Assembly: GCF_014337925.2 (NCBI RefSeq)
Contig: NZ_CP143423.1
Coordinates: 3,378,501 to 3,442,500 of the forward strand
Direction: 5' to 3'
Source: Roseobacter fucihabitans
GTDB taxonomy: Bacteria; Pseudomonadota; Alphaproteobacteria; Rhodobacterales; Rhodobacteraceae
Length of the DNA stretch: 64,000 nt
Shown: positions 19,161 through 28,480 of the stretch, one piece after another
Position numbering within the stretch: position 1 is the stretch's first letter
Layout of the letters: every line of letters starts with the position of its first letter
Translations under genes and position numbers: made by a program
Notes under the pieces: generated by a model
Told to the model about the DNA's origin: nothing
The model's input: the letters and a program-made list of their open reading frames with translations, nothing else
Database searches by the model: none

Positions 19161-19238
19161 CCGAACTCCCACAGAGGTTGTCGCAAGATTTCGGACCAGT
19201 CGTTAAGGTGGATTAATTTGTGAAAGAAGTGATCCCAA

Positions 19239-19451
19239 ATGACGAAACGAAAGAATTATTCGCCCGATTTCAAAGCTAAGGTTGCGCTTGAAGCAATTCG
19301 CGAGGAGATGACGTTGGCGGAGCTGTCCAAGAAATATGGCATTCACCCGACGCAGATTGGGACATGGAAATGCGCGGCGATAGAGAACCTGGCGACGGCC
19401 TTTACGCGCCGAGGGTCCGTCGCTGAGCAGGTGCAGCCCCAGAACAGGTGA
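19239..19451 (+). pseudogene. IS3-family OrfA (HTH protein), truncated
   Basis: MTKRKNYSPDFKAKVALEAI with the helix-turn-helix MTLAELSKKYGIHPTQIGTW and AIENLATAF is the OrfA N-terminus of an IS3-type element. The frame then shifts near 19430: the expected continuation PEQVSIADVDKLHS is present in another frame, and the insert at 19481-19519 follows it. Confidence 0.85.
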
Positions 19452-19480
19452 GCATTGCGGACGTCGACAAGTTGCATTCT

Positions 19481-19519
19481 GTCAACCGGCAGGTGATTGC
19501 CTGCAATCACTGAGAGGGG
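19481..19519 (-). repeat. Palindromic insert A (39 bp) in IS3 OrfA
   Basis: Interrupts the OrfA reading DVDKLHS | KIGQLVVERDFLA. It keeps frame length (39 nt) but brings a TGA. Read in reverse it begins CCCCCTCTCAGTGATTGC and continues GGCAATCACCTGCCGG, with the core ATTGC...GCAAT. Confidence 0.8.
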
Positions 19520-19559
19520 AAGATCGGCCAGCTGGTGGTGGAGCGGGATTTTTTGGCCC

Positions 19560-19599
19560 CCTCCCGGCAGCATGCTGCGCATGCGCCTGTCGGGCAGTG
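19560..19599 (+). repeat. Palindromic insert B (about 40 bp) in the IS3 OrfA/OrfB junction
   Basis: Follows VVERDFLA. Begins CCTCCCGGCAGCATGCTGCG and continues CATGCGCCTGTCGGG. Most similar to the reverse complement of insert C (shared CATGCT-CGCAT core and CGGGCAGTG end). The right boundary is uncertain because the native sequence here is not known to me. Confidence 0.65.
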
Positions 19600-19762
19600 G
19601 ATGCCTCGCATCAGTTGCTCGGGACGCGAGGCAAAAATGGTGAGTAAGGAGCACAAGCTGAGTGTACGCCGTCAATGCAAGCTGCTGACGCTGACCCGAT
19701 CCCACTTGTACTATGAACCGAAGGGGGAGAGCGCTGAGAACCTACGGTTCATGGAAATCATT

Positions 19763-19803
19763 CACTGCCCGGCAGGGTTATGCGAAGCATGATCCCGAGA
19801 GGG
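19763..19803 (-). repeat. Palindromic insert C (41 bp) in IS3 OrfB
   Basis: Interrupts OrfB between RFMEII and DKQFLETPW. Read in reverse it begins CCCTCTCGGGATCATGCTTC and ends CCCTGCCGGGCAGTG. 41 nt shifts the frame. The native sequence resumes at GAT (Asp). Confidence 0.82.
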
Positions 19804-19845
19804 GATAAGCAATTCCTCGAAACGCCATGGTAGGGGTCACGTCAA

Positions 19846-20547
19846 ATGGCGCGGTGCATGCAACGCAACAACCACAAATGCGGTCGCCATTGCGTGCGCC
19901 CTCTCATGCGGCTCATGCGTTTGGTCCCGATCTATCAGGAACCCAACACGAGCAAGAAACATCCCCAGCATAAGATCTGGCCGTATTTGCTTAGGAAAGC
20001 CGTGATCGACCGCCCGAACCAGGTATGGTGTGCTGACATTACCTACATCCCGATGCGGCGTGGCTTTCTGTATCTGGTGGCAATCATGGATTGGTACAGT
20101 CGCAAAGCCCTTGCTTGGCGGTTGTCCAACAGCATGGACGCGGACTTCTGCGTTGAAGCCTTGAAAGAGGCACTGGCAAAGCACGGCAGGCCAGAGATAT
20201 TTAATACGGACCAAGGCAGCCAATTTACCAGTGGTGCTTGGATCGACGTGCTCACGGATGCAAAGATCAAGATCAGCATGCCTCTCGTGACATTGCTACG
20301 CAATGCACTGACGGTAATAGATGGCAAAGCTGCCTGGCGGGACAATCGCATGATTGAAAGGCTTTGGCGATCACTGAAATACGAATGCGTCTACCTGAAC
20401 GCCTTTGAGGCGGGTTCAGAAATGCGGGCGGGGATCAGCAAATGGCTGACCTATTACAACTCTGAGCGCCCACATTCGACCCGCGGCATATTGACCCCCA
20501 ATGAGGCCTATGTCAGCAAAACAGAACCAATGAGATTGGCAGCCTAA
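19846..20547 (+). pseudogene. IS3-family OrfB transposase, C-terminal part
   Basis: The rve integrase domain is present with WCADITYIPM (first Asp), NTDQGSQFTS (second Asp) and RMIERLWRSLKYE (Glu), so the DDE triad is intact. The N-terminal part lies upstream of the TAG at 19831 in MVSKEHKLSVRRQCKLL (19638 on). A 39-nt insert at 20281-20319 adds 13 residues between ISM and DGKAAWRDN, where IS3 transposases normally read SMDGKG without a gap. Confidence 0.85.
20281..20319 (+). repeat. Palindromic insert D (39 bp, in frame) in IS3 OrfB
   Basis: Begins CCTCTCGTGACATTGCTACG and continues CAATGCACTGACGG. Exactly 39 nt, no stop, so it adds 13 residues to OrfB between ISM and the GAT of DGKAAW. The clearest copy for defining the element's ends. 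Confidence 0.87.
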
Positions 20548-20711
20548 ATGAAACCCTGATCCATCTTAACAAGGCTGCAAACTGGTCGGAAAAGTAAGAC
20601 CAACTCTTAACGATGCCACTTGGAACAGCGCTCGCTGGTAGCGCGCAGGTTTCTTTAAAAACCCGCTGTAGCGCCCTGTTTCAATCCTGCATTCTGCGAT
20701 ATTGGACGCGC

Positions 20712-21332
20712 ATGAGCCAAATATCATCCCTCTTCGTGACCCGCCTTTATCAAGCCGCCCTCTCTGAGCACGGCAAACCCATTGATGCCGCCGAGTTGGA
20801 GGCCTCCTGCTGGTCCATCGCCCAGGACGATGAAGCCGGACAAGAGTGGTGTGACGAAAACGGCTTTCCGGGCTATACCAGTTACGCCTCTTTGACCGAC
20901 TTGCCTTATCGCTTTCCGATCTTCAAAGATCTGGTCAAGGTGTTGAACAAGCACGTCAAAGCCTTCGCCCAGGACCTCAACTTCAATCTTGATGGGCGCA
21001 AGCTGAAGCTTGAGGACATCTGGATCAACATCCTCCCCCCCGGTGGCATCCATACCGGCCACATCCACCCCCATTCCGTGATCAGCGGCACCACCTATCT
21101 GGCCGTGCCCAAAGGTGCCAGCGCGATCAAATTCGAAGATCCACGCTTGGCGATGATGATGGCCGCCCCCGCGCGCACCAAGGACGCGCGCGCAGAAATG
21201 CGCACCTTCCACTATGTCACGCCCGAACCCGGCGAGGTTTTGCTCTGGGAAAGCTGGCTGCGTCATGAGGTTCCGCTGAACATGGCGGAAGCGGAAAGAA
21301 TATCCGTTTCATTTAATTACAACTGGGGCTGA
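20712..21332 (+). CDS. Putative 2OG-Fe(II) oxygenase-like protein (TIGR02466 type)
   Basis: 206 residues from ATG 20712 (MSQISSLFVTRLYQAALSEH); the longer frame from 20613 runs into IS3 flanking sequence. Conserved LEDIWINILPPGGIHTGHIH with two His, a long central part, then GEVLLWESWLRHEVPLNMAE and RISVSFNYNW supply the His/Arg of a double-stranded beta-helix iron site. No substrate known. Confidence 0.78.
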   Translation: MSQISSLFVTRLYQAALSEHGKPIDAAELEASCWSIAQDDEAGQEWCDENGFPGYTSYASLTDLPYRFPIFKDLVKVLNKHVKAFAQDLNFNLDGRKLKLEDIWINILPPGGIHTGHIHPHSVISGTTYLAVPKGASAIKFEDPRLAMMMAAPARTKDARAEMRTFHYVTPEPGEVLLWESWLRHEVPLNMAEAERISVSFNYNWG

Positions 21333-21383
21333 AGGGTCTCAGTTCATTGATTTTAAATCAAAGACTTTTATACGCCTAGTTCA

Positions 21384-21645
21384 TTGACCCGCGCGCAGCT
21401 GATCGCTCGACTTGGCCAAGTCAGCAGAAAACCGAGGGTGCGGGCTGAAAAGCACAATGTACCCCTCGCACACAAACAACCCGGCGAAGCGCGGCAGAAC
21501 GTCTATATCGAGGGCGGCAACCGTCTGGCTCACGGCGAACGGATGGGGCACACGCCCTTTGAAACCATCCGCCAGGCACAGGAGCAGAAACCCGAATGGC
21601 TCTGGACTAACAACAAACGGCCACCCAATGGGTATCGCCAGCATA
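21384..21645 (+). pseudogene. Possible 3' remnant of another IS3-type transposase
   Basis: PFETIRQAQEQKPEWLWTNN followed by KRPPNG, and in the next frame HPMGIASI, resemble the integrase C-terminus pattern of IS3 transposases (IR-AQ--ATQWLWTYNNDRPNMGIG). A frameshift near 21622 is needed. Upstream homology is weak, so this is tentative. The rest of 21333-21807 shows no gene. Confidence 0.35.
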
Positions 21646-21807
21646 GTCGCTCAGTTTTCAGAACGAACGACCCTGAGCGAAGGATTGAATATCAGCCCGC
21701 AGATATGCACGTTAAAAAGAAATTTTTAATACAAATAGTTACTCAAAATAAACCTTGGCTTCCTAGTGTGATCCTACTGTTGAAAACAGTGCTCACCAAG
21801 GTGCAGA

Positions 21808-22521
21808 ATGCCAATGAATGTAAATTTGAGCCGAAGATCATCCGTTTCCTGGGCGTTCTTAATTTGTGCTTTTGCCGTTTGCGGTTCCACAACCAGTGCG
21901 CTGACTAGGAACGTTTGCGATCGGGCCGCGATCTTAGCGTCCAATGAAACAAGCGTACCAATCTCTGTACTGCTTGCCGTGACGCGGACCGAAACCGGAC
22001 GAACAAGCGCCGGCACTTTGGAACCATGGCCTTGGGCCGTCAATGTTGCCGGAGAGGGGTCGTGGTTGCCAAACCGCTCTGACGCCGAAGACCTTGCAAA
22101 TCAGATCATCGGCACTGGAAAACGAAACATTGATATCGGTTGTTTCCAGTTGAACTATCGGTGGCATGGGCATGCTTTTTCTTCGGTTTCGGAAATGTTC
22201 GATCCGGTTTCCAATGCCAGATACGCGGCAGAATTCTTATCCCGCCTTTTCGCCGAAAAGGGCGATTGGACCAATGCTGTGGGTGCGTTTCATTCAAGGA
22301 CGCATGAGTTTTCCGAACGATATAAGAAGAAATATAAGGCAATCTATGCCGATCTCAAAACCCAAGGCTCTGGCCTGCGCCACACGCCACCGGTTTCATC
22401 CGAACAGAATCAATTTCCTCTCTTGAAACCCTCCACCGTACGGCCGCTGCGCGGATCACTGGTGCCGCTTGGAAATAGCGGAAATAGACGAAGCCTGGTT
22501 TTTCACGGAGGGGAGATATAG
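21808..22521 (+). CDS. Lytic transglycosylase, flagellar-associated
   Basis: 237 residues with a signal peptide (SWAFLICAFAVCGSTTSA). SLT-like domain: the catalytic Glu in LLAVTRTETGR, then WPWAVNVAGEG, GCFQLNYRWHG and NARYAAEFLSRLFAEKGDW. It cleaves peptidoglycan glycan strands, probably to let the flagellar rod pass. It ends 2 nt before flhA. Confidence 0.82.
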   Translation: MPMNVNLSRRSSVSWAFLICAFAVCGSTTSALTRNVCDRAAILASNETSVPISVLLAVTRTETGRTSAGTLEPWPWAVNVAGEGSWLPNRSDAEDLANQIIGTGKRNIDIGCFQLNYRWHGHAFSSVSEMFDPVSNARYAAEFLSRLFAEKGDWTNAVGAFHSRTHEFSERYKKKYKAIYADLKTQGSGLRHTPPVSSEQNQFPLLKPSTVRPLRGSLVPLGNSGNRRSLVFHGGEI

Positions 22522-22523
22522 TC

Positions 22524-24608
22524 ATGCAAAACCTGAGCATAAAGGCTTTGTTCAACCCGACGATCATGCTCGCTGTCGCCTTGATGGCGGTGATCGTGAT
22601 GATGATTCTGCCCATGCCGTCCTGGGTGCTGGACATCGGATTGGCCGCATCATTCGCCTTGGCTATCCTGATCTTCACGATCACTTTGTTTATCGAACGC
22701 CCTCTGGATTTTTCGGCGTTTCCCACCATCTTGCTGGCATCCCTGATGTTGAGGCTGTCTCTTAACGTTTCTTCGACGAAGCTCATCATTGGCGAGGGGC
22801 ACACCGGTACGGACGCCGCAGGCGGCGTCATCGAAGGCTTTGCGCAATTCGTCATGGGGGGCAGCGTTTTCCTGGGTCTGGTTGTATTCTGTGTCCTGTT
22901 GATCGTGAATTTCATGGTCATTACCAAGGGTGCGACGCGTATGGCCGAAGTCGGGGCGCGATTTGCCCTGGATGGCATGCCCGGCAAGCAACTTGCGATT
23001 GACAGCGATATGTCTGCGGGTGCCATCACGCATGCGGAGGCCAAGGAACGTCGCGAAAGAGAGCAACAGGAAACCACATTCTTCGGCTCGCTTGACGGTG
23101 CCTCCAAATTCGTAAAAGGCGACGCGGTTGCTGGATTGTTAATCACCCTGCTGAATTTGGTCGCGGGCCTCATCATGGGTATCGTGGTTCATGACATGCC
23201 CCTCGGGCAAGCTTTTGAAACCTATGCAATGCTGACGGTCGGCGATGGTTTGGTTTCACAAATCCCTGCCGTCGTGATTTCCATAGCATCCGCGTTGCTT
23301 CTGGCGCGGGGCGGTGCACAGGGTGCAACCGATCTGGCGGTTTTCAGTCAGTTAGGAAAACACCCCTCTGCGCTTGCAACAGTCGCAGGACTCATGGTGC
23401 TGTTTGCGCTGTTTCCAGGGCTTCCCTTTGGCCCTTTCATTTTTGGCGGAGCAGTCCTCGGTTTCGTCGCGTACGTGATGTATCGCAAGGCGAAAACGGC
23501 CGGTGACAAAACAGATCAGGAAGAAGCGGTTGCGATTTTACCAAAAGAAAAATCACTTGGCGACATCCTGGAGTTGGATGACATTCACGTCGAGTTCGCG
23601 CCCGACCTCGTGAATATGGTTCTGGACCCTGGAACCGGCCTTGATGCACGCATTTCCAACATGCGCACACATGTCGCTTCGGTATTCGGGCTTATCCTTC
23701 CTGAAATCAGATTGACCGACAATGCGATCCTGCCCGTCGGAACATATGTGTTGCGTATTCAGGGGGTTGAGCAGGCACGCGCCAAGCTCAATCCCGATCA
23801 AATCCTGGCTCTCGTGCCCGAAGAAGCGTCCTCGCTCCCAAGCGGTACGGACACAACCGAACCGGTTTACGGGGCCCCAGCGAGGTGGATCAACCATCGC
23901 CACCAGGAACAGGCTGCCTTGGACGGGCTGACCCTAGTCACCCCCGCCGAGGTTCTGGCCACACATCTTCTTGAAACGGTCAAGCGGAACTTCAGCCGCT
24001 TGCTGTCTCTCAAGTCGCTCCGGCGCCTGCTGGCAGAAATGGTCAATGTTTCCGAGCCCACGCGCGCTGAAGCGAACCGCAAATTGCTTGATGAAATGAT
24101 CCCCGATAAGGTCCCGATTGATGTTTTGCATGCAGTGTTGCGCCTGCTTTTGGACGAACAGGTTTCGATCAGAAATCTGCCTCTGATTTTGGAGGCTACG
24201 GCCGAAGCACGCACCCACAACACACAACCAGAAGCAATATGCGAACACGTGAGACAGCGCCTTGGGTTCCAGTTGATCGCCGAAATGAAACGAGACGACG
24301 GTACATTGCCGCTCATCCAACTGGCACCGGAATGGGAGGATACATTCAACACCTACCAGGTTGAAGCAGACCGAGGGTTGGATATCGCATTGCCCCCCGA
24401 TCTCTTCAATATGCTGGCCGAAAACATGTCGGAAAAACTGCAATCGGCCAGCCAGAACGGGATCAATGCTGCCATCGTGACGAACACCCGTCGCCGTCGC
24501 TTTCTGCGCACCGTCATGCGTGCAAAGGGTATGTCAAATCCGGTTCTCTCTTTTGAGGAGATCGGGCTTGATGCACGTCCTTCACTTGTAGGGGTCGTTG
24601 CTGCGTGA
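22524..24608 (+). CDS. flhA: Flagellar type III export protein FlhA
   Basis: 694 residues, inner-membrane export gate. About eight N-terminal membrane helices (first VALMAVIVMMILPMPSWVLD), the FHIPEP-type signature LNVSSTKLIIGEG and KQLAIDSDMSAGAITHAEAK, and a C-terminal cytoplasmic domain ending LSFEEIGLDARPSLVG. It overlaps fliR by 4 nt. Confidence 0.96.
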   Translation: MQNLSIKALFNPTIMLAVALMAVIVMMILPMPSWVLDIGLAASFALAILIFTITLFIERPLDFSAFPTILLASLMLRLSLNVSSTKLIIGEGHTGTDAAGGVIEGFAQFVMGGSVFLGLVVFCVLLIVNFMVITKGATRMAEVGARFALDGMPGKQLAIDSDMSAGAITHAEAKERREREQQETTFFGSLDGASKFVKGDAVAGLLITLLNLVAGLIMGIVVHDMPLGQAFETYAMLTVGDGLVSQIPAVVISIASALLLARGGAQGATDLAVFSQLGKHPSALATVAGLMVLFALFPGLPFGPFIFGGAVLGFVAYVMYRKAKTAGDKTDQEEAVAILPKEKSLGDILELDDIHVEFAPDLVNMVLDPGTGLDARISNMRTHVASVFGLILPEIRLTDNAILPVGTYVLRIQGVEQARAKLNPDQILALVPEEASSLPSGTDTTEPVYGAPARWINHRHQEQAALDGLTLVTPAEVLATHLLETVKRNFSRLLSLKSLRRLLAEMVNVSEPTRAEANRKLLDEMIPDKVPIDVLHAVLRLLLDEQVSIRNLPLILEATAEARTHNTQPEAICEHVRQRLGFQLIAEMKRDDGTLPLIQLAPEWEDTFNTYQVEADRGLDIALPPDLFNMLAENMSEKLQSASQNGINAAIVTNTRRRRFLRTVMRAKGMSNPVLSFEEIGLDARPSLVGVVAA

Positions 24609-25375
24609 CAGCTTTGGCGGATCTCGCACCCATGATGAACAGCGCCCTGTGGCATGGTTTCATGGTGTTTTTACGGGTTGCCGCGATGGCCGCCATGTTA
24701 CCCGCCTTCGGAGAGGAATCCGTACCTGCCCGCATCAAGCTGGTCATCGCCTTTGCCTTCACGATCATTGTCAGCCCTGCGGTTACCAGTATCGCGATCC
24801 CGCAGGGCACAGGAGACTTGCTCATTTTGATCCTAACGGAAACGCTTTCCGGTTTGGTGCTGGGGATTGGCATAAGGCTCTTTGTTCTGGCGCTCCAGAC
24901 AGCCGGCACAATTGCGGCTCATTCCACCTCATTATCACAGGTTTTTGGCGGGTCCGGCGTCGATCCAATGCCCGCTATGGGGTATATCCTGATTGTTGGC
25001 GGCCTGGCTTTGGCGGTCATGACAGGGCTGCATATAAAAGCGGCGCAGCTGGTGATCCTATCTTATGATTTCCTGCCCATGGGGCGGTTTACCGAAGCGT
25101 CCATCATTTCAGACTGGGGGGTGTCGCAGGTCGCGCGCGCCTTTACGCTCGCTTTCACCCTAGCCGCACCGTTCATCATTTTGTCTGTGCTCTATAATGT
25201 TGCGCTTGGGGCGATCAATAAAGCCATGCCGCAACTCATGGTCGCTTTCGTCGGCGCACCCGTCATAACCGCCGGCGGTCTATTTTTGCTACTCATGTCT
25301 GCGCCATTGATCTTGTCGGTCTGGGTCGAAGCCATGGATGGATTTTTGATCAATCCCTTTGGATCGATCCCATGA
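24605..25375 (+). CDS. fliR: Flagellar export protein FliR
   Basis: 256 residues, inner-membrane gate with FliP and FliQ. Six hydrophobic segments; AFGEESVPARIKLVIAFAFT near the N-terminus, the central VFGGSGVDPMPAMGYIL, and ALGAINKAMPQLMVAFVGAP late. Overlaps flhA and flhB by 4 nt each. Confidence 0.94.
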   Translation: MTALADLAPMMNSALWHGFMVFLRVAAMAAMLPAFGEESVPARIKLVIAFAFTIIVSPAVTSIAIPQGTGDLLILILTETLSGLVLGIGIRLFVLALQTAGTIAAHSTSLSQVFGGSGVDPMPAMGYILIVGGLALAVMTGLHIKAAQLVILSYDFLPMGRFTEASIISDWGVSQVARAFTLAFTLAAPFIILSVLYNVALGAINKAMPQLMVAFVGAPVITAGGLFLLLMSAPLILSVWVEAMDGFLINPFGSIP

Positions 25376-26460
25376 GCCAGGGAGATGATCAAAGCGACAA
25401 GACCTATGACGCGACGCCGCAAAAACTCTTAGAGGCGCGCAAGAAAGGGGAGATTGCCCGATCGACCGAACTGCTGACGGCCTGTGCTTATGCGGGGTTG
25501 TTACTTGCTTTCGTCGCCGTGGGCGGCAGCAGTTTGACCCATCTGGGAACAACGATGATGGTGATGATTGACCAACCGGCGCAGTTGGCACCATTGTTTT
25601 TTGGAGGCGCGTCCGGAGCACCGACGCAGGGGATCATGCGCGCCGTTGCTTGGGCCGTTTCGCCCTTTTTCCTAGTACCGGCGCTTGCCGTTTTACTTTG
25701 CCTTTTTGCGGTCCGTGGGATTGTTTTCGCCCCGACGAAAGTGGCACCGAAGATCTCAAAAATATCCATAATCGCGAACGCCAAGAACAAGTTTGGACGT
25801 ACAGGTCTATTCCAATTCGCGGTCAGCTTTTCCAAGCTCCTGATCTATTCCGCCTGTCTTGCGCTCTTCATTGACTGGCGGTTGGAGGAGATGGTGGCCG
25901 TTCTGCAAACGAACCCTCGTATTGTGGTATCCCTCCTTGCCGAAATCTGTTTGAAATTTCTGCTGGTCGTTGTGATCGTTTCTGGAGCGATTGGTGCAAT
26001 TGATGCCATTTGGCAGCATTTTGAACACCTTAGAAAAAACATGATGTCGCGCAAGGAGATCATGGATGAGAGTAAAAACAACGAAGGTGATCCCCATATG
26101 AAGCAGGAGCGCCGCCAGCGGGCACATGCAATTGCAAGTTCGCAGATGATGGCAGATGTGCCCGGAGCGGACGTTATTGTGGTTAACCCAACCCATTATG
26201 CCGTCGCTTTGAAATGGGAGCGCAAACCTGGCCAGGCGCCCGTGTGTGTCGCCAAAGGGGTCGATGAAATTGCCCTGCGTATCCGGGAAATCGCTGCAGA
26301 AAACAATATTCCGATCCATAGTGACCCCCCCACGGCACGCGCTCTGCATGCGACAACGCAAATCGGCGATGAGATTTCGCCAGATCATTATCGCGCTGTA
26401 GCGGCGGCTATTCGTTTTGCTGAAGCAATGCGCCAAAAGGCGAGGCGCAAATTTCAGTGA
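25372..26460 (+). CDS. flhB: Flagellar export protein FlhB
   Basis: 362 residues, the substrate-specificity switch. KTYDATPQKLLEARKKGEIA at the N-terminus, four membrane helices, and the autocleavage motif VVNPTHYAVALKW (Asn-Pro-Thr-His) at about residue 268. SMMSRKEIMDESKNNEGDP precedes it. Overlaps the next gene by 4 nt. Confidence 0.96.
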   Translation: MSQGDDQSDKTYDATPQKLLEARKKGEIARSTELLTACAYAGLLLAFVAVGGSSLTHLGTTMMVMIDQPAQLAPLFFGGASGAPTQGIMRAVAWAVSPFFLVPALAVLLCLFAVRGIVFAPTKVAPKISKISIIANAKNKFGRTGLFQFAVSFSKLLIYSACLALFIDWRLEEMVAVLQTNPRIVVSLLAEICLKFLLVVVIVSGAIGAIDAIWQHFEHLRKNMMSRKEIMDESKNNEGDPHMKQERRQRAHAIASSQMMADVPGADVIVVNPTHYAVALKWERKPGQAPVCVAKGVDEIALRIREIAAENNIPIHSDPPTARALHATTQIGDEISPDHYRAVAAAIRFAEAMRQKARRKFQ

Positions 26461-26888
26461 ACCTTGATAACTTGAAAGAAATCCATGCGTTGGTCGAGGC
26501 TAGGTACGAAACCAGACGCCAGGCGTTCCAGCGTCTTGTGAAAAAAGAAAACGACTTGCGTCAGGAACTTCGCCGCCTTGATGATCAGGCGCGGTCCGCG
26601 AACCTCCAGGGTGATACAGACATGCAGACCATCGGTGCCGACGTCATCTGGAAAGCATGGGTCGGGAAGGCAAAAACTTCTCTCAATATCAAACTGGCTT
26701 TGATTTTAGCCGAAAAAGAACAACATATCCGACAAGTCAAACAGGCGTATGGCAAAGTCATCGCCGCTGAAAAGCTGATCGGCGACCTGTCACGTGAACA
26801 AATTAAACGCGTGGAAAAGAAATCACTGGATGATGCCATGATTGCAGCAATTTTTGGATCTTCTTCCAGTCAAACCTCTTCCGATTGA
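26457..26888 (+). CDS. Putative FliJ-like coiled-coil protein
   Basis: 143 residues, mostly helical and charged (RLVKKENDLRQELRRLDDQA; EKEQHIRQVKQAYGKVIAAE), with no membrane segment. Position at the end of the export operon, overlapping flhB by 4 nt, and its coiled-coil character suggest a FliJ-like export chaperone. Sequence similarity is too low to be certain. It is the last gene of the operon before IS debris. Confidence 0.6.
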   Translation: MNLDNLKEIHALVEARYETRRQAFQRLVKKENDLRQELRRLDDQARSANLQGDTDMQTIGADVIWKAWVGKAKTSLNIKLALILAEKEQHIRQVKQAYGKVIAAEKLIGDLSREQIKRVEKKSLDDAMIAAIFGSSSSQTSSD

Positions 26889-26965
26889 GGTTCACTCCTC
26901 CGAGAGGCTCGATCATAGCCTTTGACCGGTCGATCTGCCTGCAATCTTTGCCCTTATGATTGCGG

Positions 26966-27277
26966 TTAAATTCGACAGACCGATTGAGAGGAAATAGAGG
27001 GGCGGCGCTCCATGGCTGAGCGATCAATTTCCCGCAAGGCGCGGTGAATTGATGAGAGGTGAACGGATACGCCGTATGCGTCTTCCAGCGCGCCCGATAG
27101 TGCATGCAATGTTATGTCTGGTTCGGCACGGATAATCCCGATTAAGAAATCCTTATACGGTGCCAGCTGGCCAAATCCGGCCCACCGGCCCGCCCTGTGG
27201 TCTGGGCGTGACGTCGCGCCGCTCTCGTTTGTCCGCAGCATAACGCACCGCCGTTTTCGCGGGTTCTTAACCACCAT
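26966..27277 (-). pseudogene. IS630-type transposase, N-terminal fragment
   Basis: GFGQLAPYKDFLIGIIRAEP followed by DITLHALSGALEDAYG and VSVHLSSIHRAL match the second helix-turn-helix of IS630 proteins. After RALRE the frame reads into unrelated residues. It is on the opposite strand to the C-terminal half at 27640-28373 and about 350 bp away, so the two may be halves of one element separated by inversion. Confidence 0.65.
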
Positions 27278-27315
27278 TCTAAAGTCGCCAAAAATAAGTT
27301 GTTGTTCTTACTTGT

Positions 27316-27543
27316 CTAATAGAGTTCTTCCGAGATAACTTCATCCTGATTTTCAAAAACCAGTATTTCGAGAGAGAGCCGTCGCTTCGGGCGTGGTTTT
27401 GCAGCCAAGGATCCACGCCTAATATGCGGAGTGCTCGGCTCAGAGGGCGATCGCGCGTCAAGTTTCCCTTTCAACAGCGCCGTGGGACGACGGAGAAACC
27501 TTTGAACCTCGGTTGCGTATGAGTGTCGGACGCTCCTAACCAT
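27316..27543 (-). CDS. Small ORF within IS debris, doubtful
   Basis: 75 residues, basic first half (MVRSVRHSYATEVQRFLRRP) and acidic end (EILVFENQDEVISEELY). No family recognised and no good ribosome binding site. It may be chance. Region 27278-27640 otherwise shows no gene. Confidence 0.25.
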   Translation of the reverse strand: MVRSVRHSYATEVQRFLRRPTALLKGKLDARSPSEPSTPHIRRGSLAAKPRPKRRLSLEILVFENQDEVISEELY

Positions 27544-27794
27544 TTATATCTTTCTTGAACGTTCGGGGTGCTGCAAACTGCCCATTCCAAAATTCGATCT
27601 GACGGCAAAACCTTGGGCTTTGATCTCCCGAAACCGGATGCTTAAGGAAGGCTTGGTACGCGCCGGGTTCTCATATGGAAAAAGGACTTATCGCACGGGA
27701 ACGTAATCGGCCTGCGCTGCGCAGGGCAAGGCGGGGGTGAATCAACCACCGCCAGCCGCGCATGCGCCAGGAGCCACACAGACTGGTCTTTATT

Positions 27795-27835
27795 GCTTCT
27801 GGGGACATTGCTGCGCAATACCCTGCCAGCCAGCG
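27795..27835 (+). repeat. Palindromic insert E (41 bp) in IS630 transposase
   Basis: Lies between LVFI and DETAVKTN. Core GGGGACATTGCTGCGCAATA. Shares 31 of 41 positions with insert G. The transposase resumes at GAT, the codon for the first catalytic Asp. Confidence 0.88.
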
Positions 27836-28042
27836 GATGAGACAGCCGTAAAAACCAATGTCACGCGGCTGTGCGGACGGGCACCTATAGGCGAGCGCCT
27901 CCTTGGCACCGCGGCCTTTGGAAAACGGGGTACGCAGACTTTCATTGCCGGGCTGCGCTGATCGCGCCGTGGGTGATCACGGGTGCACTGGACGGGCGCG
28001 CCTTCGACACCTGCGTTGGAACCCGGAACGGTGGTCATTCTC

Positions 28043-28082
28043 TCCTCTCCTTGATTGCTCTGCAATCAACTGCCGGGCAAGG
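28043..28082 (+). repeat. Palindromic insert F (40 bp) in IS630 transposase
   Basis: Lies between LEPGTVVIL and DNLSTHK. Begins TCCTCTCCTTGATTGCTCTG and continues CAATCAACTGCCGGGCAAGG. The transposase resumes at GAC, the second catalytic Asp. Boundary could shift by 2 nt. Confidence 0.85.
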
Positions 28083-28176
28083 GACAATCTTTCCACCCAC
28101 AAAAGCCCCCGCGCAGCGCAGGCGTTAAGAATGCTGGTTCCTGTTCTTGCCGCCCTACTCCCGCGACCTCAACCCC

Positions 28177-28217
28177 ACCTCTCGGGACATTGCTGCACAA
28201 TACCCTGAAGGCCAATG
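28177..28217 (+). repeat. Palindromic insert G (41 bp) in IS630 transposase
   Basis: Lies between DLNP and IEMAFSKLK. Begins ACCTCTCGGGACATTGCTGC and continues ACAATACCCTGAAGGCCAAT. The transposase resumes at ATC GAG, the Glu being the third acidic residue. Confidence 0.88.
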
Positions 28218-28480
28218 ATCGAGATGGCTTTCTCAAAGCTCAAAGCCCATCTGAGACGGATCGGGCCAAAAACGTTTGATACAAACTTCCAGGCCCTCGG
28301 CGACATTTGTGATCTGTTTGATCCAAACGAATGCTGAAACCTCCTCAAAGCTGCCGGATACGCCTCAGATTAAATGCAAAATGCCTTAAAATCCGAATGG
28401 CCGCTACATATGGATTCAAAACGAAATTCGCGGAATCTTTGTCCCGATTTCGAGACAACTTTACCCCGATTTACAGTTTT

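Follow-up and report, generated by a model that had tools for sequence, protein, structure and literature searches.

Seven inserts in two transposase genes

The question raised by this locus is what kind of DNA interrupts two transposase genes in a 64,000-nucleotide stretch of Roseobacter fucihabitans (contig NZ_CP143423.1, positions 3,378,501 to 3,442,500; the whole stretch is called the window below). One gene belongs to an insertion sequence (IS) of the IS3 family and contains four short blocks, A to D; the other is an IS630-family remnant with three, E to G (Table 1). A first-pass annotation, made from the letters alone, had described the blocks as palindromic insertions of one family. The seven stretches proved to be real and their coordinates right to within 1 bp, A and B being shifted by one base. 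We read them as palindromic insertion elements that are non-autonomous and occur for the most part in Rhodobacterales; they would act at the DNA level in mobile DNA and would be spread in addition by movement of the host IS and by recombination. The probability of this reading is put at about 0.62.

That the blocks are insertions and not native sequence is seen from relatives without them (L140, L141, L477 and L478), and these empty sites rule out ordinary coding sequence as an explanation. When the window IS3 was aligned over its length with annotated plasmid copies from Phaeobacter (L140) and Roseovarius (L141), A to D appeared as additional blocks and the gene continued immediately behind each of them. 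F and G were additional relative to an annotated Roseovarius IS630 (L478), in an alignment that started just beyond E, and E, F and G are present as additional blocks in L109b, a diverged IS630 relative from the same genome. None of the four insert-free relatives has the same blocks at the same sites, as would be expected of native sequence, and an IS3 from Antarctobacter (L143) bears its own, different member of the family at the position of A.

The seven blocks form one family in both orientations, as had been claimed, A and C being inverted relative to the host gene. When the window was scanned simply, with a threshold score of 25, five of the inserts (B, C, D, E and G) scored 30-35, three other matches scored 25, and A and F were missed; five mononucleotide shuffles of the window gave 0-2 matches each. 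Across the whole genome the 23-mer CTCTCGGGACATTGCTGCGCAAT was found at 57 places with up to 3 mismatches and the reversed pattern at 0. Chance similarity of the inserts is ruled out by these two controls. A covariance model built from 21 copies, C included, detected all seven inserts and no eighth in the window at E ≤ 1.

Table 1. Features of the window and, in the last rows, loci with inserts of two further families. Window positions are those of the 64,000-nucleotide stretch; ^ marks the point of insertion.
Feature	Position	Strand	Length	Description
IS3-family element, host of A-D	19215..20560	+		OrfA/OrfB, rve integrase core; Pfam HTH_Tnp_1 and rve; named IS3 copies aligned
Insert A	19480..19518	-	39 bp	stem GTGATTGC/GCAATCAC; site GCATTC^GAAGAT
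Insert B	19559..19599	+	41 bp	site GGCC^GATGCC
Insert C	19763..19803	-	41 bp	site ATT^GATAAG
Insert D	20281..20319	+	39 bp	stop-free, in frame, adds 13 codons; site ATG^GATGGC
IS630-family remnant, host of E-G	27650..28360	+		tblastn against annotated IS630 transposases; alignments
Insert E	27795..27835	+	41 bp	site TTTATT^GATGAG, placed on the diverged copy L109b
Insert F	28043..28082	+	40 bp	site ATTCTC^GACAAT
Insert G	28177..28217	+	41 bp	site AACCCC^ATCGAG
Family 2 insert	L087 1418	-		
Family 2 insert	L433 486	-		
Family 2 insert	L268 7109	+		
Family 2 insert	L079/L418			
Family 3 inserts	L410, L428, L433, L079, L118 2940, others			

OrfA of the window IS3 has a further additional stretch of 17 bp, at about 19412-19428, which is missing from three relatives and lies outside the palindromic families.

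Anatomy of the element

The element consists of CCCCTCTC, a hairpin of free sequence and CTGCCGGGCARTG, in which the outermost C is possibly derived from the target. Its length is about 36-45 bp, most commonly 41, and with the outer C removed is divisible by three in just 13 of 133 elements. To our knowledge it would be among the smallest insertion elements. Between the constant arms, 102 distinct middles were counted in 133-134 distinct elements (the filters differ between counts; L249, duplicates and short flanks were removed for 133). A stem of at least 6 bp can be formed by 82% of 134 elements compared with 5.2% of shuffled middles, and a bulged A is frequent behind two stem pairs (GG-A-CATTGC...GCAATG-CC). 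In a correction to the layout first proposed, the ATTGC/GCAAT core is one of many interchangeable stems, the constant parts being the flanking CTCTC...CTGCC.

The covariation score over 21 aligned copies was 0.218; shuffles gave 0.069, and no slid pairing scored above 0.097. The structure had been drawn from the same 21 sequences on which it was scored. Two other measures, one counting pairs in which both partners had changed and one counting additional pair types, were not above shuffles (229 and 210 of 500 shuffles reached them), and two elements folded singly were of ordinary stability (z of -0.9 and -1.2). Given that the stem sequence varies freely while arms and shape stay constant, we infer from these alignments that the element is recognised by its shape plus its arms. 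Constant arms around a free stem point to an enzyme that reads DNA shape.

Insertion sites

Insertion follows a rule on one side of the element. Directly after the CTGCC end the bases G, A, Y and G contribute 0.96, 0.86, 0.63 and 0.66 bits over 133 elements, and the 5' flank is nearly free (at most 0.25 bits). Filled and empty sites could be compared in 70 rows at 85% flank identity or more. About 45 of these are distinct inserts of the family described here (family 1) with clean junctions and flank identities of 85-95%, a number obtained by rough regular-expression grouping after subtracting coding differences (45-bp rows and one 36-bp row), two other insert families and repeats. No bases are common to both junctions, either in these inserts or relative to empty repeat copies, and a target-site duplication is absent. 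The repeat in question is an apparently intergenic, multi-hairpin sequence of ~85 nt carried by Rhodobacteraceae bacterium 63075, the genome that contains L264. Eleven copies were found by pattern (L466-L476), 7 of them empty and 4 filled, all at the same GGC^GATG site, and the filled composite is present in three further genomes.

A second type of IS3 contains 45 inserts, of which 12 are forward, 19 reverse and 14 unassigned; members of families 2 and 3 are counted in this total, as is one doubtful case. The 25-bp 'insert' in L421 probably arose from misalignment. An end filter, which C and D failed, left 17 sites, and in these the three codon phases were used 9, 2 and 6 times. Translational bypassing at a fixed codon phase is not supported by this spread.

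Distribution

A profile search, suggested with the first-pass annotation as a check, was made with the covariance model. It placed elements at 148 or more sites in the R. fucihabitans genome, a lower bound from 150 scored candidates, and gave a match at E ≤ 0.01 in 67 of 149 genomes of the bacterial family, R. fucihabitans included. A gapped pattern run over 84,980 species matched at least 120 stretches, 113 of those listed being Rhodobacterales as judged from the names in the record titles. The remaining matches listed were two Labrenzia, one Cohaesibacter, one metagenome-assembled genome (MAG) of Rhizobiaceae, two MAGs named no further than Alphaproteobacteria and one Planctomicrobium, and the last of these (L249) was discarded as non-palindromic. 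If the reading is correct, the elements form a family that is widely distributed and parasitises mobile DNA.

Two variants of the element occur in 2 and 16 plasmid records, all of them Rhodobacterales by name; a close match lies on a plasmid of Phaeobacter gallaeciensis. One pattern matched 4 stretches in IMG/VR, two of which resemble a contig of Labrenzia OB1 (L282) in length and position, and one variant had no match in a phage collection; on these counts a phage origin was rejected. Rfam gave 0 matches at the gathering threshold in 10 sources totalling 121,089 bases. No description of such elements was found among open-access titles and abstract openings, a scope from which subscription journals mostly fall out.

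Host sequences

Thirty pieces of open reading frames (ORFs) adjoin elements in the R. fucihabitans genome. Transposase or integrase families of Pfam were matched by 22, although two of these matches are to a helix-turn-helix only (HTH_21, HTH_38) and some pieces come from one gene; 8 had no match and 0 matched another function. The families are IS3, IS200/Y1, IS21, IS66, IS4/5, Mutator and tyrosine integrase. One element interrupts a Y1 gene (L102).

In the relatives, transposase-like coding sequence was found within 500 bp of 105 of 135 elements (78%), compared with 12 of 375 control positions (3.2%) more than 2 kb distant in the same stretches. The tblastn library was drawn from ORFs adjoining elements and is thus biased in their favour, and the count was repeated without self-matches, giving 99 of 135 (73%); in loci that had yielded no query it was 63 of 93. 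When the best ORF was picked for 70 elements, 40 matched transposases or integrases, 11 matched something else (some weakly, some as neighbours, since a pick may sit up to 250 bp off the element) and 19 had no match.

Sixteen of the 30 elements lacking a transposase-like flank were read by eye. Five are in IS (L195, L201, L202, L210, L212), six in the apparently intergenic repeat (L229, L230, L262, L264 twice, L284), one in a toxin-like gene (L207) and one in a spacer (L208), and three are unclear (L205, L216, L243). By the same kind of reading, the elements at L086 1501 and L207 1345 lie at or near the start of a RelE-like toxin gene. The earlier statement that the inserts occur only inside transposase genes is not supported in that form, given the apparently intergenic repeat, the toxin-like gene and the spacer. 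L207 also adjoins a weak gpW match, and the viral contig L314 (1471) has a flank in common with L086.

Such a bias towards mobile DNA could arise if insertion were neutral across the genome and survivors were confined to dispensable IS genes. IS genes are dispensable and many inserted copies are decaying, and transposase-like sequence was not assigned to 8 of 30 contexts in the R. fucihabitans genome or to 30 of 135 elsewhere. However, spacers are equally dispensable, yet no element in the R. fucihabitans genome could be placed in a plain spacer (with those 8 contexts unassigned), and L208 is the single case among the relatives read. The enrichment over control positions, with or without self-matches, is also large. 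In addition, 19 inserted copies of the second IS3 type contain 36 lesions other than their 45 inserts (three families), compared with 13 lesions in 19 uninserted copies, in a set chosen by similarity to an inserted copy and with the duplicates L418, L422 and L425 omitted. Inserts are thus about as frequent as all other lesions in decaying IS, yet hardly any of those read could be placed in a spacer, so that uniform neutral insertion looks wrong, and we regard it as very improbable. Either insertion would be directed to mobile DNA, for example while this is single-stranded during transfer or transposition, or the elements would become enriched there by recombination and host movement. The elements may be part of the reason why so many IS genes in these genomes are broken.

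Spread with the host IS and by recombination

Copies of the window IS3 in its own genome, 3 of them full and 2 partial, are 100% identical, and none of full length was found there without inserts. Another inserted IS3, of the L135 type, occurs at 6 or more places with an identical deletion between two elements. The deleted exon presumably bears the catalytic glutamate. Because the L135 type multiplied despite this loss, some movement must have occurred in trans. The R. fucihabitans genome contains 19 full-length, insert-free copies of a related IS3 with near-equal scores (L171-L189; 69% identical to the query). This is probably the currently active IS3 of the genome and could supply transposase to the L135 type.

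In the IS630 family, hybrids of E and G with the middle deleted were seen at four aligned loci (L137, L108, L109 1980-2900 and L128), where E and G appear, from the alignments, to have recombined to leave short derivatives resembling miniature inverted-repeat transposable elements (MITEs). A 7.2-Mb assembly has 12 places that each contain a pair of elements ~300 bp apart in a Mutator-type transposase fragment, as read by eye.

The window IS630 and L109b share E, F and G. Their exons have diverged under selection, with a synonymous divergence (pS) of 0.50 and a ratio of nonsynonymous to synonymous changes (pN/pS) of 0.25, compared with 0.18 for two intact copies, both read across the programmed frameshift. 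Of the 122 bases in the inserts, only 8 are different by our own count, and E and G are each followed on the 3' side by sequence that looks almost the same in both copies. Inserts and 3' flanks are far more alike than the exons, which suggests that the three inserts came to be shared by a later recombinational exchange and not through tolerance.

It could then be asked whether the elements spread within multicopy families chiefly by recombination, perhaps biased, after rare founding insertions. The near-identity of E, F and G in two otherwise diverged copies is what this would produce, and the hosts are multicopy, including the repeat with filled and empty copies. The second IS3 type provides the contrary case. 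Five loci, each from a different genome, have an element at its site 332 (L087, L135, L432, and L088 and L418, which are nearly identical), and the four different stems among them point to separate insertions. Recombination as the chief route is judged improbable.

Candidate mechanism

For the preferred reading, of non-autonomous elements inserted at the DNA level, the following steps are proposed. A folded single strand would be the substrate of a putative cutting-and-joining enzyme acting in trans, which would read the constant ends and the shape and not the stem sequence. Insertion is seen to be precise, in either orientation and free of duplication, with the CTGCC end placed against GAYG, mostly in genes of mobile DNA; it would mostly inactivate the host gene. 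Enrichment in mobile and repeated DNA would come from insertion there together with later recombination and host-IS movement. Recombination between two direct copies within one IS appears to have deleted the DNA between them and left MITE-like derivatives.

The Y1/HUH transposase (PF01797), the obvious candidate class, was considered as the general mover and is not supported in that role. It is present in 16 of 149 genomes and is over-represented in carriers of the element (13 of 16 Y1 genomes compared with 54 of 133 others; Fisher P = 0.003), but this enrichment may merely reflect richness in IS. As 54 of the 67 carrier genomes have no PF01797, Y1 is not a universal mover, though it may have a part. 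The GAYG rule and the missing target duplication should make the mover findable experimentally.

Effect on the host gene

Several observations weigh against the preferred reading. The 54 carriers without Y1 include G013, G067 and G075, with 16-39 element matches. Among the retrieved loci none was seen to contain a gene with element ends on both sides, whole genomes not having been scanned for such genes. Movement was not observed. The first-pass annotation had taken copies at other loci, variably present between strains, as the proof of mobility; copies at many loci and present/absent differences between related IS copies were found, but a strain-level pair was not, the closest family-1 pair having 95% flank identity. 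Finally, an IS3 is present six times in the G013 genome; measured against one of the six, the copies are 99.1-99.8% identical, and each has the same set of four inserts (38, 40, 38 and 38 nt). These break the frame, and the exons show 0 nonsense codons and 0 other frameshifts. If the inserts were lethal to the gene, all four would have to fall within a fraction of the branch no larger than ~3% (for which P = 0.048), and 3.3 or more copy-specific inserts would then be expected in the six copies, where 0 are seen (P = 0.037 or less). With inserts spread across the whole branch, zero copy-specific inserts has P = 0.91. Both tests rest on one branch estimate in one genome and are therefore weighed lightly.

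The G013 data raise the alternative that inserts are tolerated, being skipped in or removed from the message, or precisely excised from the DNA, often enough to provide a little transposase. OrfB on the G013 branch has a pN/pS of 0.045, where the branches leading to two relatives have 0.048 and 0.136, a sign of strong purifying selection in the past. No full-length insert-free counterpart was found in that genome, the remaining matches being fragments. In the second IS3 type the excess of terminal-branch pN/pS is small: the 19 inserted copies have 0.100, and the 19 uninserted ones, of which the identical L163 and L434 contributed no changes, have 0.082. Against tolerance stand the greater number of other lesions in inserted copies of that type, already given, and the L135 type, which shows that movement in trans occurs. 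The window IS3 bears a nonsense codon, and its branch has a pN/pS of 0.11 compared with 0.02 and 0.07 in two relatives. The six G013 copies are neutral among themselves at present (12 nonsynonymous and 3 synonymous changes), and insertion in both orientations and all three codon phases is a poor fit to a single RNA or ribosome signal. Tolerance is judged unlikely.

Some copies may be exempt from inactivation. A plasmid IS3 of Sulfitobacter, annotated as a normal transposase, is open in frame through an element, and such in-frame copies may be tolerated. On the G013 data, some host genes may also have functioned while they contained inserts. The stronger proposal is that transposase genes with several frame-breaking hairpins still yield enough protein, the hairpins being skipped, spliced or precisely excised. 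Bacteria would then possess an equivalent of the byp elements of mitochondria, one that is tolerated in IS because an IS needs little transposase. We give this proposal a low chance; the IS3 of G013 is a direct test case for expression across frame-breaking hairpins.

Comparison with known elements

The closest known elements are Rickettsia palindromic elements (RPE) and intragenic repetitive extragenic palindromes (REP), and membership in either fails on the features compared. RPE are described as ~150-bp palindromic repeats that alter cellular genes in frame (PMC10969869, PMC3733652), and the smaller RPE-4 and RPE-6 are counted among CGTC-tagged repeats (PMC3733652). As in RPE, the elements are palindromic repeats inside ORFs, within protein-coding genes of an alphaproteobacterium. 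They are shorter, as the first-pass annotation had noted, at 36-45 bp, are found mostly in genes of mobile DNA and have another sequence; they mostly break the frame, whereas RPE are in frame and translated, the exceptions here being D, which is open over its 39 bp, and the Sulfitobacter plasmid IS3.

REP are described as hairpins of 20-40 bp with GTAG/GYAG tags, mainly intergenic with intragenic cases known (PMC3733652, PMC8266576). The elements are likewise short stem-loops, and read in reverse they show GCAG directly 5' of the hairpin. They differ in having no strict GTAG or CGTC tag, in conserved arms on both sides and in a free stem sequence. REP are mainly extragenic, in contrast to the transposase-like neighbours of 105 of 135 elements, and have an associated Y1 gene, the REP-associated tyrosine transposase (RAYT), which most carriers lack (Y1 flanks were not searched for elements).

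IS200/IS605 elements use a short target beside one end. Byps contain hairpins. IS200/IS605 transposition is described as single-stranded with recognition of hairpins (PMC8266576). The likeness lies in a hairpin, a short target beside one end and no target duplication; the differences are one hairpin in place of two ends and the absence of a Y1 transposase from most carriers. Judged by analogy, the absent duplication, the one-sided short target and a folded strand resemble the logic of IS200/IS605 and of REP/RAYT.

MITEs are characterised in a review as small, non-autonomous and multicopy (PMC10969869), and so are the elements here. The latter are far shorter, no target duplication was found and no terminal inverted repeats of a known IS were recognised. 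The byp elements of Magnusiomyces mitochondria and the bypassing in T4 gene 60 involve short blocks that break coding genes (PMC5009743). The likeness is in short gene-breaking blocks with hairpins, and the difference is that both orientations and all codon phases occur here. Within small palindromic selfish DNA the family is set apart by arms that are constant while the stems vary freely, by insertion at GAYG with no duplication of the target, by a wide distribution within one order and by its hosts in mobile DNA.

Further insert families

Two more families of small-hairpin inserts were found in the same IS3 gene, so the phenomenon exceeds one family (Table 1). Family 2 consists of ~43-bp inserts, a GAGGAGGATC-hairpin with a TCCGGGGGA centre and ending in CCC, in the same IS3 transposase gene. 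Family 3 has 36-38 bp around CCATTG.CCTCGGACCAATGGCGGA, in nine distinct contexts in the retrieved loci. In L410 and L428 the family 3 inserts are found in IS3 copies that have no other lesion.

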